Assembly (NCBI GenBank): GCA_030538175.1
Contig: JAUNUL010000004.1
Span: 12,226 to 25,790 of the forward strand
Length of the DNA stretch: 13,565 nucleotides
DNA from: Propionibacteriaceae bacterium
Lineage (GTDB): Bacteria > Actinomycetota > Actinomycetes > Propionibacteriales > Propionibacteriaceae
Reading direction: 5' to 3'
This document shows, in pieces, positions 4,141-8,259 of the stretch (position 1 is its first letter; each line of letters begins with the position of its first letter). The translations under genes and the position numbers were made by a program. Under the pieces are notes generated by a model that worked only from the letters and a program-made list of their open reading frames with translations, was not told where the DNA came from and did no database searches.

Positions 4141-4797
4141 ATGTCGAAGGCCATCGTCCATTTGTTGCGCCACGGTCATGTCGAGAACCCGCAAGGGGTT
4201 CTCTATGAGCGACTGCCGGACTTTCACCTGTCCGAAGTCGGGCGCAAAATGGCCCTGCGCCTGGCGGAGTTCACCGCGGACATGGACTTGGTGCACCTGC
4301 GTTGTTCACCGCTGGAGCGCGCCCAGGAGACGATCGCCCCGATCGCGGAACGCCACGGTCTCGAGGTGGTCACCGATGACCGGGTCATCGAGGCGGGAAA
4401 CAACCTGCGCGGTCGCGTGTTCACCGGCAAGCTCAGCCAGCTCGCCCATCCGGCAGTGCTGGCCAAGCTGTGGAACCCCCTGCGCCCCAGCTGGGGTGAG
4501 GCCTATCGCGATATCGCGGCCCGCATGCGGGCGGCCATCGCCGATGCCGCTGCTGCAGCCGAGGGCCAGGAGGCCCTGATCGTCAGCCATCAGCTCCCCA
4601 TCTGGATGGCTCGGCGGGACGCCGAGGGGCGGTCGTTGGTGCATGACCCCCGCAAGCGCCAGTGCACCCTCGCCTCGCTCACCTCGTTCACCCTGATCGA
4701 TGGGCGGGTGACCAAGGTCGAGTACGCGGAGCCCGCGCTCGATCTTGTGCCGGCCAAGAACCGCCTCGGCCAGAAGAAGTTCGTGGCGGGAGCTTGA
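4141..4797 (+). CDS. Histidine phosphatase (phosphoglycerate mutase-like) family protein
   Basis: A 218-residue protein of the histidine phosphatase superfamily, which transfers phosphate through a phospho-histidine. The N-terminal motif LLRHGHVENP supplies catalytic H11 with R10. Further active-site residues are R60 in CSPLERAQET, the probable acid E84 in VIEAGNN, and the second histidine H150 in LIVSHQLPIW. An AGGAG site nine bases before the ATG fixes the start. The gene holds the same place between hemL and the thioredoxin-like gene as Rv0525 of M. tuberculosis (recalled order). Sequence does not show whether the substrate is a sugar phosphate, a nucleotide or something linked to heme, and the link is positional only. 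The long repeat-filled gap after it is unusual for this cluster. Confidence 0.9.
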   Translation: MSKAIVHLLRHGHVENPQGVLYERLPDFHLSEVGRKMALRLAEFTADMDLVHLRCSPLERAQETIAPIAERHGLEVVTDDRVIEAGNNLRGRVFTGKLSQLAHPAVLAKLWNPLRPSWGEAYRDIAARMRAAIADAAAAAEGQEALIVSHQLPIWMARRDAEGRSLVHDPRKRQCTLASLTSFTLIDGRVTKVEYAEPALDLVPAKNRLGQKKFVAGA

Positions 4798-4830
4798 TCG
4801 TGCACGGTGGGCAGCGGCCCGCACAAGACG

Positions 4831-4927
4831 CAGGGATCGTCACCCAGGGCCACGTGGACGAGCCAATGGGGTCGCAGTGCAGCGGAGATGACGATGCGAG
4901 GAACGCCGAGCGACCGATCGCGGCGCG
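4831..4927 (+). repeat. Long direct repeat, copy A
   Basis: This 97-base segment aligns without gaps to 5283-5379, with 82 of 97 positions identical by hand count. The last 75 bases (from 4853, starting CGTGGACGAGCC) match at 68 of 75. Both copies end in a GC-rich hairpin-like sequence; here it is weak (CGCG, four bases, CGCG). The two copies are 452 bases apart. Confidence 0.85.
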
Positions 4928-4969
4928 CGAGCGCGGAAACACGCCAGCGCCTCACCACGTTCTTCCTGG

Positions 4970-5083
4970 TGTCACAAATGCGCGGTCGCCGCACCAACCG
5001 GTTCGCGACGTCGTGGCGGATGTCACAAATGCACCACCGCCACGCCAGGAACCCCTTCACGTCATGCCAGATGTCACAAATGC
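4970..5083 (+). repeat. Three 12-base cores with exact 51-base spacing
   Basis: TGTCACAAATGC occurs at 4970-4981, 5021-5032 and 5072-5083, exactly 51 bases apart. The bases between the cores are only loosely alike; an ACGT about 11-12 bases before each core is shared. Three cores of only 12 bases with diverged intervals do not make a CRISPR array. The spacing is a multiple of three, so it would also give a 17-residue period if translated. Confidence 0.8.
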
Positions 5084-5160
5084 GCCACCGCCGCCCTCAG
5101 CCCGGGGCCTAGGGTCGGTGCAGGACCCCCAAATGGTGCTGCGATCCACACCTCCCACGC

Positions 5161-5206
5161 TGAAAGTCACCCACCACCGCGAGTCCACCGTGGTGAGTGA
5201 CTTTCA
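5161..5206 (+). repeat. Long inverted repeat (hairpin)
   Basis: The left arm TGAAAGTCACCCACCAC (5161-5177) pairs with the right arm GTGGTGAGTGACTTTCA (5190-5206) at 16 of 17 positions, leaving a 12-base loop. No T-run follows on either strand, so it does not look like a standard terminator. It could be a REP-type palindrome, an operator, or the end of a small mobile repeat. The right arm contains the first possible GTG start (5197) of the tlpA-like frame. Confidence 0.8.
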
Positions 5207-5943
5207 CAGTGGGGTGTCGGTGGGAGCGTCCCTCCGGTCTGCGCAGACAACACCGACAGCGCCCACTCGTGGGGCGAGAACCCTGGGAGCGTCCCTCCGG
5301 GCTGCGTGGACGAGCCCAAGGAGTCGCAGCGCAGCGGAGACGACGACGCGAGGAACGCAGAGCGACCGATCGCGGCGCGGTAGCGCCGCAGACAACACGC
5401 CTTGCCGTCGCTGCGACGGCTTTGGCCCTCGCGCTGGCCGGGTGCAGCAGTGGGTCCGGTGGCGCGGAGGGTTTCGTCGCCGGCAAGACCGGGCTGACCC
5501 AGGTCGCGGTGGCGGATCGGGTCGAGGCCCCGGTCGCCAGTGGTCCCGGGCTCGGTGGTGGTGAGGTGACCACGTCCCATCCGGGCAAGGTTGTCGTCAT
5601 CAACGTGTGGGGGTCCTGGTGTGAGCCGTGCCGCGCTGAGGCAGCGGACCTCGAGGCCGCCTGGCAGGACACCAAGGATGTGGCGCAGTTCGTCGGGATC
5701 GACACCCGTGACCCTGATCCGGCCCCTGCGCTGGCATTCGTGCGCACGTTCAACATCACCTATCCGTCGATCTTCGACCCCCAGGGCCGCAGCCTGTTGG
5801 AGTTCTCCGGCACGCTGCCACCATCGGGGATCCCCAGCACCTTGATAGTCGACGCCGAGGGCCGGATCGCTGCCCGCGTGATCGGTGAGGTCGACCGCAA
5901 CACCCTCACAGGACTCGTCCGGGACACCGCTGAGGGACGCTGA
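5197..5943 (+). CDS. TlpA/ResA-like thioredoxin lipoprotein; start codon unresolved, repeat-derived 5' end
   Basis: A membrane-anchored thioredoxin-fold protein that, in System II cytochrome c maturation, reduces apocytochrome haem-binding cysteines outside the membrane using electrons from CcdA. Counting from the GTG at 5197: signal peptide core LAVAATALALALAGC with lipobox LAGC (C83), thioredoxin motif WCEPC (141-145) in VVVINVWGSWCEPCRAEAADL, and the cis-proline region SGIPSTLIVD (P213). The mature domain is complete and of normal size. The start is the problem: the only usual start codons upstream of the signal peptide are GTGs at 5197, 5209 and 5269, none with a Shine-Dalgarno or -10 element in place. 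All lie in or beside repeat DNA, giving an arginine-rich extension (QRRRRREERR). The native start may have been lost. The ccdA gene follows after six bases. Confidence 0.8.
   Translation: MTFTVGCRWERPSGLRRQHRQRPLVGREPWERPSGLRGRAQGVAAQRRRRREERRATDRGAVAPQTTRLAVAATALALALAGCSSGSGGAEGFVAGKTGLTQVAVADRVEAPVASGPGLGGGEVTTSHPGKVVVINVWGSWCEPCRAEAADLEAAWQDTKDVAQFVGIDTRDPDPAPALAFVRTFNITYPSIFDPQGRSLLEFSGTLPPSGIPSTLIVDAEGRIAARVIGEVDRNTLTGLVRDTAEGR
5221..5242 (+). repeat. Short direct repeat matching the start of copy B
   Basis: These 22 bases (beginning TGGGAGCGTCCCTCCGG) recur at 5284-5305 with one mismatch, 63 bases away. Both lie in the same frame of the tlpA-like gene and each would encode WERPSGLR. 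The second copy is the left end of the long repeat copy B, so this looks like a partial third copy of the element. Confidence 0.8.
5283..5379 (+). repeat. Long direct repeat, copy B, inside the 5' part of the tlpA-like frame
   Basis: Second copy of the 97-base repeat at 4831-4927 (82 of 97 identical). Its right end runs into a 7-bp hairpin, GCGGCGC-GGTA-GCGCCGC (5372-5389), whose right arm ends about 11 bases before the codons of the lipoprotein signal peptide. The frame passes through the element without a stop. The repeat therefore supplies the coding-strand sequence where the native N-terminus and start of the tlpA-like gene should be. Confidence 0.85.
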
Positions 5944-5949
5944 CGGCAC

Positions 5950-6714
5950 ATGACATTGCTCGACATCGGGGTGTGGGCGCAGAACGCCGTGTCCGGGGGC
6001 CTGGCCCTGGCGCTGCCGATCGCTCTGCTGGCCGGCTTGGTGTCGTTCTTCTCTCCGTGCGTGGTCCCGCTGTTGCCGGGGTACTTGTCTTATGCGACCG
6101 GGTTGAGCGCGACCGATGTGATGGCCGGCAAGGGGTCGCGTTGGCGGATGCTGGCGGGGTCGACCCTGTTCGTCCTCGGGTTCGCCTTCGTCTTCGTGAT
6201 GTCGGGGGTGGCGGCGGGTTCGATCGGTCGAGCCTTGTTCGTGTATGCCCGGCCCCTCACGATCATCTTCGGCATCCTCATGATTCTGTTGGGGCTGATC
6301 TTCGCCGGCTTGGTGCCACTGGGCCAGCGGGATATGCGTTTCCACCGGATCCCCAAGGTCGGCGTTGCCTTCGCCCCTCTGCTGGGTGTGTTGTTTGGTC
6401 TGGGCTGGACACCGTGCATCGGCCCCACCCTGACCGTGGTGCTCACCCTCGCCATGACCGAGGGCTCTGCGGTGCGGGGCGGGATTCTCGCCTTCGTCTA
6501 TGCCCTGGGCTTGGGAATTCCGTTCGTGCTCGCCGGTCTGGCCTTCGCCCGGATGAATCGCGCGGTTCGGTTCGTGCGCCGGCACCAGGTGGCGATGATG
6601 CGCATCGGCGGGGGCTTGATGGTGGTGGTCGGCATTCTGTTGCTGACCGGCGGCTGGGATTTCCTGATGGCTGAGGTCCGCCAGTGGACCAGTTCGTTCG
6701 TGACGGTGATGTGA
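5950..6714 (+). CDS. ccdA: CcdA-type cytochrome c biogenesis / thiol-disulfide transport membrane protein
   Basis: A 254-residue polytopic membrane protein of the DsbD/CcdA family. It carries reducing equivalents from cytosolic thioredoxin across the membrane to the TlpA/ResA-like protein. The two redox cysteines are in the family motifs SFFSPCVVPLLPGY (C37) and GWTPCIGPTL (C156). Six hydrophobic segments are visible, near residues 18-35, 68-90, 100-122, 138-170, 177-197 and 214-236. It starts six bases after the tlpA-like stop with only a distant GAGGG, so translation is probably coupled. Its stop overlaps the resB start by one base (TGATG). Length and motifs are typical, and I see no defect. 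Confidence 0.95.
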   Translation: MTLLDIGVWAQNAVSGGLALALPIALLAGLVSFFSPCVVPLLPGYLSYATGLSATDVMAGKGSRWRMLAGSTLFVLGFAFVFVMSGVAAGSIGRALFVYARPLTIIFGILMILLGLIFAGLVPLGQRDMRFHRIPKVGVAFAPLLGVLFGLGWTPCIGPTLTVVLTLAMTEGSAVRGGILAFVYALGLGIPFVLAGLAFARMNRAVRFVRRHQVAMMRIGGGLMVVVGILLLTGGWDFLMAEVRQWTSSFVTVM

Positions 6715-8259
6715 TGAAGAAGGATTCCGACGCCTCCGCCCTGTCGGGTGTGGAACTGCTGCGTTTCGGCTGGACCCAGCTCACCTCGATGCGGACGGCG
6801 TTGACGCTGCTGTTCGTCGCCGCGCTGGCGGCGATCCCAGGCTCTCTGATCCCGCAACGACCGGTCTCGCCGGTGCAGGTGGCTGACTTCATCGCCGAAC
6901 AGCCGACGCTCGGACGGATCTATGACACCCTCGGGTTGTTCGAGGTCTACACCTCACCGTGGTTCTCGGCGATCTATCTGCTGCTGTTGGTGTCGTTGCT
7001 CGGCTGCATCATTCCCCGCATCGGGGTGTATGCGAAAGCGGTTCGTGCCCAGCCCGTGCAGACCCCCCGCAACCTGGCCCGGTTGCCGGCGTACGCGAAG
7101 GTCCCCGCCCGCGACGACGCGATCGATGCGGCTGAAGCCCACCTCAAGGGGCGCCACTATCGCGTACGCCGCATTGACGAGCCGACGGGCGTCAGCCTCT
7201 CGGCAGAGCGGGGCAGGGAACCTCGTCTTCCACCTGTCGCTGGTCTTCCTGCTTGTCGGGGTCGCGATCGGCGTGTTGTTCGGCTACCGCGGGACGTCGA
7301 TCGTCCCGGTGGGCGGCGGTTTCGCCAACACCCTGTCGCAGTATGACGAGCTGACCTCGGGGGCGGAGTTCACCGATCTGGACCTGGATCCGTTCAGCGT
7401 GGTCGTCGACGATTTCGTGGTCCGCTTCGAGACGGGCCGCGTCAACACCGGCCAGCCGCGGGAGTTCACCGCGCACGTGCGGGTGGCCGACACCCCGGGT
7501 GGCCCGGAGCGCACGGAGACGATTGAGGTCAATCACCCACTGGAGGTCGCGGGCACCCAGGTGCATCTGTTGGGTCATGGGTATGCGCCGCGGGTGACGG
7601 TCCATGACGGCAACGGCGATGTCGCGTTCTCGGGGCCGGTCGTCTTCCTGCCGCAGGACGGGAGTTTCACGTCCAATGGGGTGATCAAGGTCCCGGATGG
7701 CCGCCCCGATCGGTTGGCGTTCGAAGGCATCTTCGTGCCCACTGCGCCGGTGGATGACCCGATGCCGCAGTCGTTGTTCCCGGATCCGTATAACCCCGAG
7801 CTGTTCCTCAACGCCTTCCACGGTGCGCCGCGGGATTCGTCGGGCAAGCCCGAGAACGTCTATTCGCTCAACAAGGACGGGTTGACGCAATATCACGCAT
7901 CCGATGGCGACCTGTTGCGGTTCCGGTTGAAGCCGGGCGAGCAGTTCGCTTTGCCCGATGGTCGCGGGACGATCTCCTTCGACGGCTGGCAGCGCTGGGT
8001 GCGGCTGCAGGTGAGCTATACCCCGGGTCTGCCGTTGGCGCTGGGTTCGGTGCTGGTCGGCGTCGCGGGGCTGTGCCTGTCGCTGTTCATCCGGCCGCGC
8101 CGGCTGTGGGTCCGGGTGAGGGCGGACGGTATGGCCGAGGTGGCTGGGCTTGACCGGGCCGAGGCCCGGACCGGGCTCGCTGAGGCCGTGGGTGATGTGG
8201 GGGAGGCGGTTCTGCGCACTGCGTCACCCGTCACGAATGAGTCCGAGATGGCAAGATAG
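6714..8259 (+). pseudogene. resB: Cytochrome c biogenesis protein ResB (Ccs1), frameshifted by an apparent small deletion
   Basis: ResB works with CcsB to carry heme out of the cell and attach it to apocytochrome c. The N-terminal part (6714-7211, 166 codons) includes transmembrane segments MRTALTLLFVAALAAIPGSLIP and SAIYLLLLVSLLGCIIPRIGVY (overlapping text shortened to family core). The C-terminal part (7213-8259, 348 residues) has the third segment LVFHLSLVFLLVGVAIGVLFG, the extracytoplasmic domain with VNHPLEV, and the fourth segment near LALGSVLVGVAGLCLSLF. The parts are in different frames. Relatives read roughly SAEKGYLREAGNLVFH; here AER meets AGN with one base (7212) between, as if about 14 bases were lost. 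Unshifted, the N-terminal frame ends at 7346 after 210 residues. Start ATG 6714 overlaps the ccdA stop. A true mutation or an assembly error are both possible. Confidence 0.85.

Follow-up and report, generated by a model that had tools for sequence, protein, structure and literature searches.

A composite array of dispersed hairpin repeats interrupts the 5' end of a tlpA gene in a draft Propionibacteriaceae genome

Rickettsia palindromic elements (RPEs) lie in frame inside unrelated genes, according to a review of MITEs (PMC10969869). REP sequences are reported inside genes of several species (PMC3733652) and have been counted in Acidipropionibacterium thoenii (PMC12306157), and CcsX-type thioredoxins are described as reducing apocytochrome c (PMC4222556). 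The repeat element described here shares with RPEs a length in the range of about 100-150 bp, a palindrome, a dispersed distribution and, probably, in-frame positions in unrelated protein genes, a likeness of behaviour. Unlike RPEs, it occurs in a host of another phylum and GC content and many of its copies lie at gene ends; in-frame insertion is shown for a HAD hydrolase gene, inferred for fadJ and not the case in tlpA. Its likeness to REP/MITE-type repeats is one of small size, dispersal, a hairpin and a frequent position next to stop codons. The interrupted gene resembles those of ResA/CcsX-type TlpA lipoproteins of System II in its thioredoxin fold, CxxC motif, lipobox and adjacent ccdA-resB-ccsA genes; unlike in those systems, the start codon and n-region are severed from tlpA and resB is frameshifted. 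In the literature searched, which covered subscription journals sparsely, an in-frame element was not found in Actinobacteria.

The window, that is, the whole stretch of DNA analysed (13,565 nt), lies on contig C409 of a 553-contig draft genome (G000; 87.8% complete, 5.1% contaminated). Its gene order, with names assigned from Pfam families and gene order, is hemL, a histidine-phosphatase-family gene, tlpA, ccdA, resB and ccsA, a cytochrome c maturation System II cluster. The tlpA product matches AhpC-TSA (3.1e-12) and Redoxin (5e-12), its CxxC reads WCEPC, and the genes clustered with it carry DsbD_TM (ccdA), ResB (resB) and Cytochrom_C_asm (ccsA) domains. On reading the sequence and aligning it with relatives, the h-region and lipobox are present and the start codon and n-region are missing, and the complete export signal that runs from the start codon in ResA/CcsX-type proteins is thus absent from the remnant. 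No TlpA relative was found in the viral contigs searched. A protein of 343 aa in the databases (P0083) combines a histidine-phosphatase domain (PF00300) with a TlpA domain and so unites what the two coupled genes of the tlpA locus encode separately. The features of the locus are collected in Table 1.

Table 1. Features of the interrupted tlpA locus (positions in the window)
Feature	Position	Strand	Basis
Histidine-phosphatase-superfamily gene, intact	4141..4797	+	PF00300, E 9.8e-34; synteny with congeners
SD-like GGGAG for GTG 4800; function inferred	4788..4792	+	anti-SD duplex -6.6 kcal/mol
Probable native tlpA start GTG; frame open to 5564	4800..4802	+	frame relation to upstream stop as in 20/23 relatives
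Composite repeat array separating start from rest of tlpA; left boundary approximate	4803..5398	+	blastn vs G001
Alternative start GTG 4807 in tlpA frame (frame relation of G004); frame ends at TAG 5110-5112 inside array	4807..5112	+	ORF list
Element copy A	4828..4934	+	repeat comparison; genome search
Three 34-nt repeats, 51 nt spacing (...GATGTCACAAATGC...)	4957..5092	+	related stretches elsewhere in G000
Inverted repeat, 24-nt arms 88% complementary, strong hairpin	5154..5213	+	six places in G000 at E<1e-4
In-frame GTG 5209, best standard in-frame start, inside inverted repeat	5209..5211	+	SD-like GGTGAG
Element copy with internal deletion that joins its 5' and 3' ends	5221..5251	+	repeat detection; sequence reading
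Element copy B, full length	5282..5398	+	genome search; sequence reading
Terminal hairpin of copy B, GCGGCGC-GGTA-GCGCCGC	5372..5389	+	hairpin pairing analysis
tlpA remnant (complete mature domain with CxxC 5620-5631, preceded by signal-peptide h-region and lipobox Cys 5443)	5399..5943	+	Pfam AhpC-TSA/Redoxin; protein alignment
resB, frame broken in two near 7212, where 14 nt present in G001 are deleted	6714..8259	+	comparison with G001; Pfam

Comparison by blastn with G001, the closest congener, delimits the foreign segment: DNA homology ends at 4798, directly behind the upstream stop codon, and is found again from the lipobox (5443) onwards. The DNA on either side is orthologous and collinear with that of four congeners, which makes a chimeric contig unlikely. 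A first-pass annotation of this DNA had noticed a repeat in two copies upstream of tlpA and had regarded the second as the whole of the foreign segment. The two copies indeed align at 84% identity over 107 nt (4828-4934 and 5280-5386) and are members of a dispersed family, but the segment proves to be a composite array of about 600 bp. The same annotation placed the change from repeat to gene at about 5390-5400, in agreement with a junction at about 5398/5399, where the usual end of the element (...GCAGACAACAC) stops. A comparable composite array is carried by contig C212 (71% over 444 nt). When positions 5282-5400 were used as query, 21 of the 34 matches listed in G000 for this element of about 119 bp had E<1e-6, including both window copies and many partial ones; since eight of these 21 lie 13 nt or less from a contig end, the true number is probably higher. 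A scan of 4750-5500 found neither a sigma-70-like promoter nor a terminator-like site, and no known RNA family was found in the array, three weak microRNA matches falling far below the cut-off. The interruption of tlpA by a lineage-specific repeat family is judged real and unusual; in this draft assembly the gene may be dead, bypassed or mis-assembled.

In relatives, the start of tlpA coincides with or adjoins the stop codon of the histidine-phosphatase gene, whose 3' end overlaps or abuts it. The distance from the upstream stop to the lipobox Cys codon was 41-169 bp (median 62) in the 23 measurable of 29 relatives' loci, fetched out of the 91 other genomes with a match (in the other six the script did not find the lipobox or the upstream gene), and 77-110 bp in the four congeners; it is 645 bp in the window. 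Divided by three, this distance leaves a remainder of 2, the signature of an ATGA/GTGA/TGATG stop-start overlap, in 20 of the 23, of 1 in two and of 0 in the congener G004; the window also gives 0. All 18 relatives aligned, picked from 120 listed, are 183-208 aa long with short leaders, and their alignment at the tlpA 5' end revealed no extension like that of the window; a few longer relatives such as P0096 (251 aa) stand among the 120, outside the 18. A conserved N-terminal extension was rejected on these grounds and because none of 521 candidate database proteins matched the array-derived leader at E<=0.01.

The GTG at 4800 follows its SD-like GGGAG by seven bases, and TTG 4794, which overlaps the upstream TGA, shares its frame. 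It should be noted that an SD duplex of -6 or better is reached at 21% of the 626 NTG codons on the + strand of the window, so that the SD is not decisive alone. The frame of GTG 4800 stays open for 200 codons through the array, and the tlpA remnant lies in another frame. The frame of the remnant can be entered at GTG 4807, and is stopped within the array and again at TGA 5161-5163. As neither frame reaches the remnant, the gene looks broken in the assembly. The first-pass annotation proposed that the repeat had replaced the start of tlpA; a native-looking start site that it passed over, GTG 4800, persists at the far end of the array, and the coupled-type start is probably separated from its gene by the approximately 600 bp of array and not replaced.

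The explanation that we favour, and consider probable, is that the repeat family built the array within tlpA at its very 5' end and thereby cut the coupled start from the gene. The array itself lies between the upstream stop and the signal-peptide core. The translationally coupled GTG 4800 would have survived, and ribosomes starting there would read the array out of the tlpA frame and stop at 5564; the lipoprotein would then be absent, or produced inefficiently from a start in the tlpA frame within the array. The selection data given below suggest that the insertion was recent. Elsewhere the element is tolerated inside N-terminal coding regions when in frame, as shown for the HAD gene and likely for fadJ. 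Some observations count against this explanation. An open frame as long as that of GTG 4800 was obtained in 5.9% of 2000 shuffles, a hint that the true array might be in frame; G004 has the same remainder of 0 as the window, so that the native frame relation is uncertain, though the frame from GTG 4807 that would match it is stopped at 5110-5112; and draft assemblies may contain errors in repeats.

A different reading, which we regard as possible but doubtful, is that tlpA is now translated from a start within the array (GTG 5209, 5197 or 5269, or CTG 5302) and that the array supplies an arginine-rich n-region before the lipoprotein signal. The leader would be strongly basic, as n-regions are, the tlpA frame is open from 5164, and the mature domain shows no relaxed selection. 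The first-pass annotation had the frame run through copy B without a stop; this is correct for copy B, but the frame is stop-free only downstream of TGA 5161-5163. Because dinucleotide shuffling of 5164-5399 also leaves the frame open in 28% of 2000 trials, the open frame is not evidence of coding. Likewise, the statement that the nearby GTGs have no ribosome site holds for GTG 5197 and GTG 5269, with weak SD duplexes (-2.5 and 0.0), but not for GTG 5209, which is preceded at nine bases by the SD-like GGTGAGTG (duplex -7.4 kcal/mol). Both this SD and its start codon are enclosed in the 24-nt inverted repeat, however, the GTG lying in the right arm, and the 78 residues from 5209 to the Cys exceed the leader of any of the 18 aligned relatives. 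The non-standard in-frame CTG 5302 is preceded by GGGAGCGT (duplex -6.9), but CTG is a rare start codon. Further against a start in the array are the empty promoter scan of 4750-5500 and the failure of the leader to match any of the 521 database candidates. Reading the sequence bore out that the frame has no ATG, GTG or TTG after 5269 and before the signal-peptide core. The core itself includes TTG 5422, where the database model of this gene (P0001, 173 aa) begins, seven residues before the Cys. Users of this annotation should be warned that the model starts inside the signal peptide. Of the two outcomes proposed at first pass, the loss of normal initiation fits best; GTG 5209 or CTG 5302 might give rise to an arginine-rich leader.

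It is very improbable that the array acts as a regulatory spacer giving tlpA its own promoter and start and uncoupling it from the upstream gene. Insertions between coupled genes could do so in principle, and by reading some copies appear upstream of open frames (on contigs C207, C158 and C34), but the scan of 4750-5500, made for sigma-70-type sites, yielded no promoter-like match and the n-region itself is lost.

Over the 166 codons of the mature domain, tlpA has a dN/dS of 0.055 against G001, and synonymous and nonsynonymous changes number 26 and 8 in the G000 lineage versus 24 and 7 in that of G001 (hemB, without a G001 match there, was dropped from the comparison). Decay of the mature domain under relaxed selection was rejected on these values. 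Such strong purifying selection is ill-suited to a dead gene and counts against the explanation that we favour; it is compatible with three readings: the break is recent, the assembly is wrong, or translation from GTG 5209, or perhaps CTG 5302, in the tlpA frame bypasses the break. The resB gene is single in all five genomes of the genus, split only in G000 and intact in 4/4 congeners. Pairwise dN/dS values of its halves are 0.074 and 0.073, with a nonsynonymous share slightly higher in the G000 lineage than in that of G001 (11/41 vs 7/38 and 23/75 vs 22/98). This frameshift counts against continued function of the tlpA pathway. In G000 an open frame of 357 aa containing two cytochrome c domains remains intact, which suggests that cytochrome c maturation is still needed and counts against the favoured explanation; loss of the whole cytochrome c pathway was rejected for the same reason.

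The resB frameshift, 1.8 kb away, is also a second lesion and counts towards an assembly error. We consider it unlikely that the array is mis-assembled, by an indel, collapsed copies or a wrong path, and that the genome itself has tlpA whole or in frame. The fragmented, incomplete and partly contaminated state of the draft and the eight element matches adjoining contig ends speak for such an error, but the collinear flanks, a junction at the usual end of the element and the similar array on C212 argue against it.

A family-wide DNA search matched the element in two of 198 genomes, G000 and G003, the latter with two divergent copies; as the best four candidates per genome were scored and copy A as query missed G003, absence elsewhere is not firm. 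Weak matches in G033 and G054 were discarded as not element-like on reading, and exact-pattern scans did not find the element in the contigs of the named genomes, a set from which records near G000 were possibly left out. The palindrome is conserved as in RPE-like repeats: with arms picked as best-scoring, the terminal hairpin pairs 7/7 in 12 of 17 copies. Pair 4 is GC in seven of these twelve, CG in three and TA in two, indicating that pairing is kept while the sequence changes. In 9 of 14 copies (13 from G000 and one from G003, with the window, HAD and fadJ copies excluded), no more than 8 nt separate the 3' end from the stop codon of an open frame that converges on the element, an outcome towards which the choice of the longest frame by the script is biased; six of these nine frames carry a Pfam domain. 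The hairpin, which has no T run, may protect or end transcripts at gene ends; termination in particular is a guess, given that the terminator scan of 4750-5500 was empty. The family is probably non-coding and non-autonomous.

Two further genes contain the element near their 5' ends. The first encodes a HAD hydrolase (Pfam) downstream of an apparent xseB, named by reading (L081 on contig C194 in G000, L125 in G001). In G002, G003 and G004 (3/3) the start codon of this gene overlaps the preceding stop, and the protein has no leader. G000 retains the overlapping GTG, which is followed by 59 residues, mostly element sequence, in frame before the HAD motif; in G001 the same GTG opens an in-frame leader of 26 residues. 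This shorter leader resembles the element weakly, since equally high scores were reached by 38 of 2000 mononucleotide shuffles in comparison with the G000 leader and by 131 of 2000 with the family consensus. L081 also has a run of 10 Ns inside the HAD gene. The second gene, fadJ, with enoyl-CoA hydratase and hydroxyacyl-CoA dehydrogenase domains (Pfam), is divided between contigs: C120 (L130) runs out in element sequence, 51 codons downstream of the start codon, and C157 (L112) starts in the element and continues into fadJ. The two halves are likely in frame, being so if the unassembled C120-C157 gap is 23 nt, an interval seen in 12 of 14 element copies (15 were given, one not being matched). 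In G001, 15 nt of fadJ agree with the 5' part of the element at all but one position (a match reached by 22 of 2000 shuffles), and the gene has a perfect terminal hairpin; these remains are in frame, and by reading both are absent from G003. The G001 gene thus probably carries a shortened relic of the element, so that the fadJ insertion, and perhaps that in HAD, would predate the G000/G001 split. Loss of the start, as in tlpA, was considered for these genes and rejected, both keeping one. The same element stands in frame in the HAD gene, would do so in fadJ with a 23-nt gap, and in tlpA is out of the frame of GTG 4800.

We tentatively suggest, as an idea with a low chance of being right in full, that the family is a GC-rich actinobacterial counterpart of RPEs: a selfish hairpin repeat near the starts of coupled genes that is translated within unrelated proteins, stays in frame from one species to another and has given tlpA a new basic n-region. 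The locus shows that small repeats at stop-start overlaps are able to uncouple operon genes, and the comparative case (two species, two genes, probably shared insertions) may allow selfish DNA to be followed as it turns protein-coding outside Rickettsia.

The inverted repeat of the array, built around TGACTTTCA, represents a second dispersed hairpin family in G000, found at 5154-5213 of the window and on contigs C98, C212, C299, C513 and C170; no Rfam match above the cut-off was found for it. Finally, a subfamily of the element itself (L076, L077, L078 and L081) ends in a different hairpin, around TGCGGGGGTCGTCCCCCGCA.
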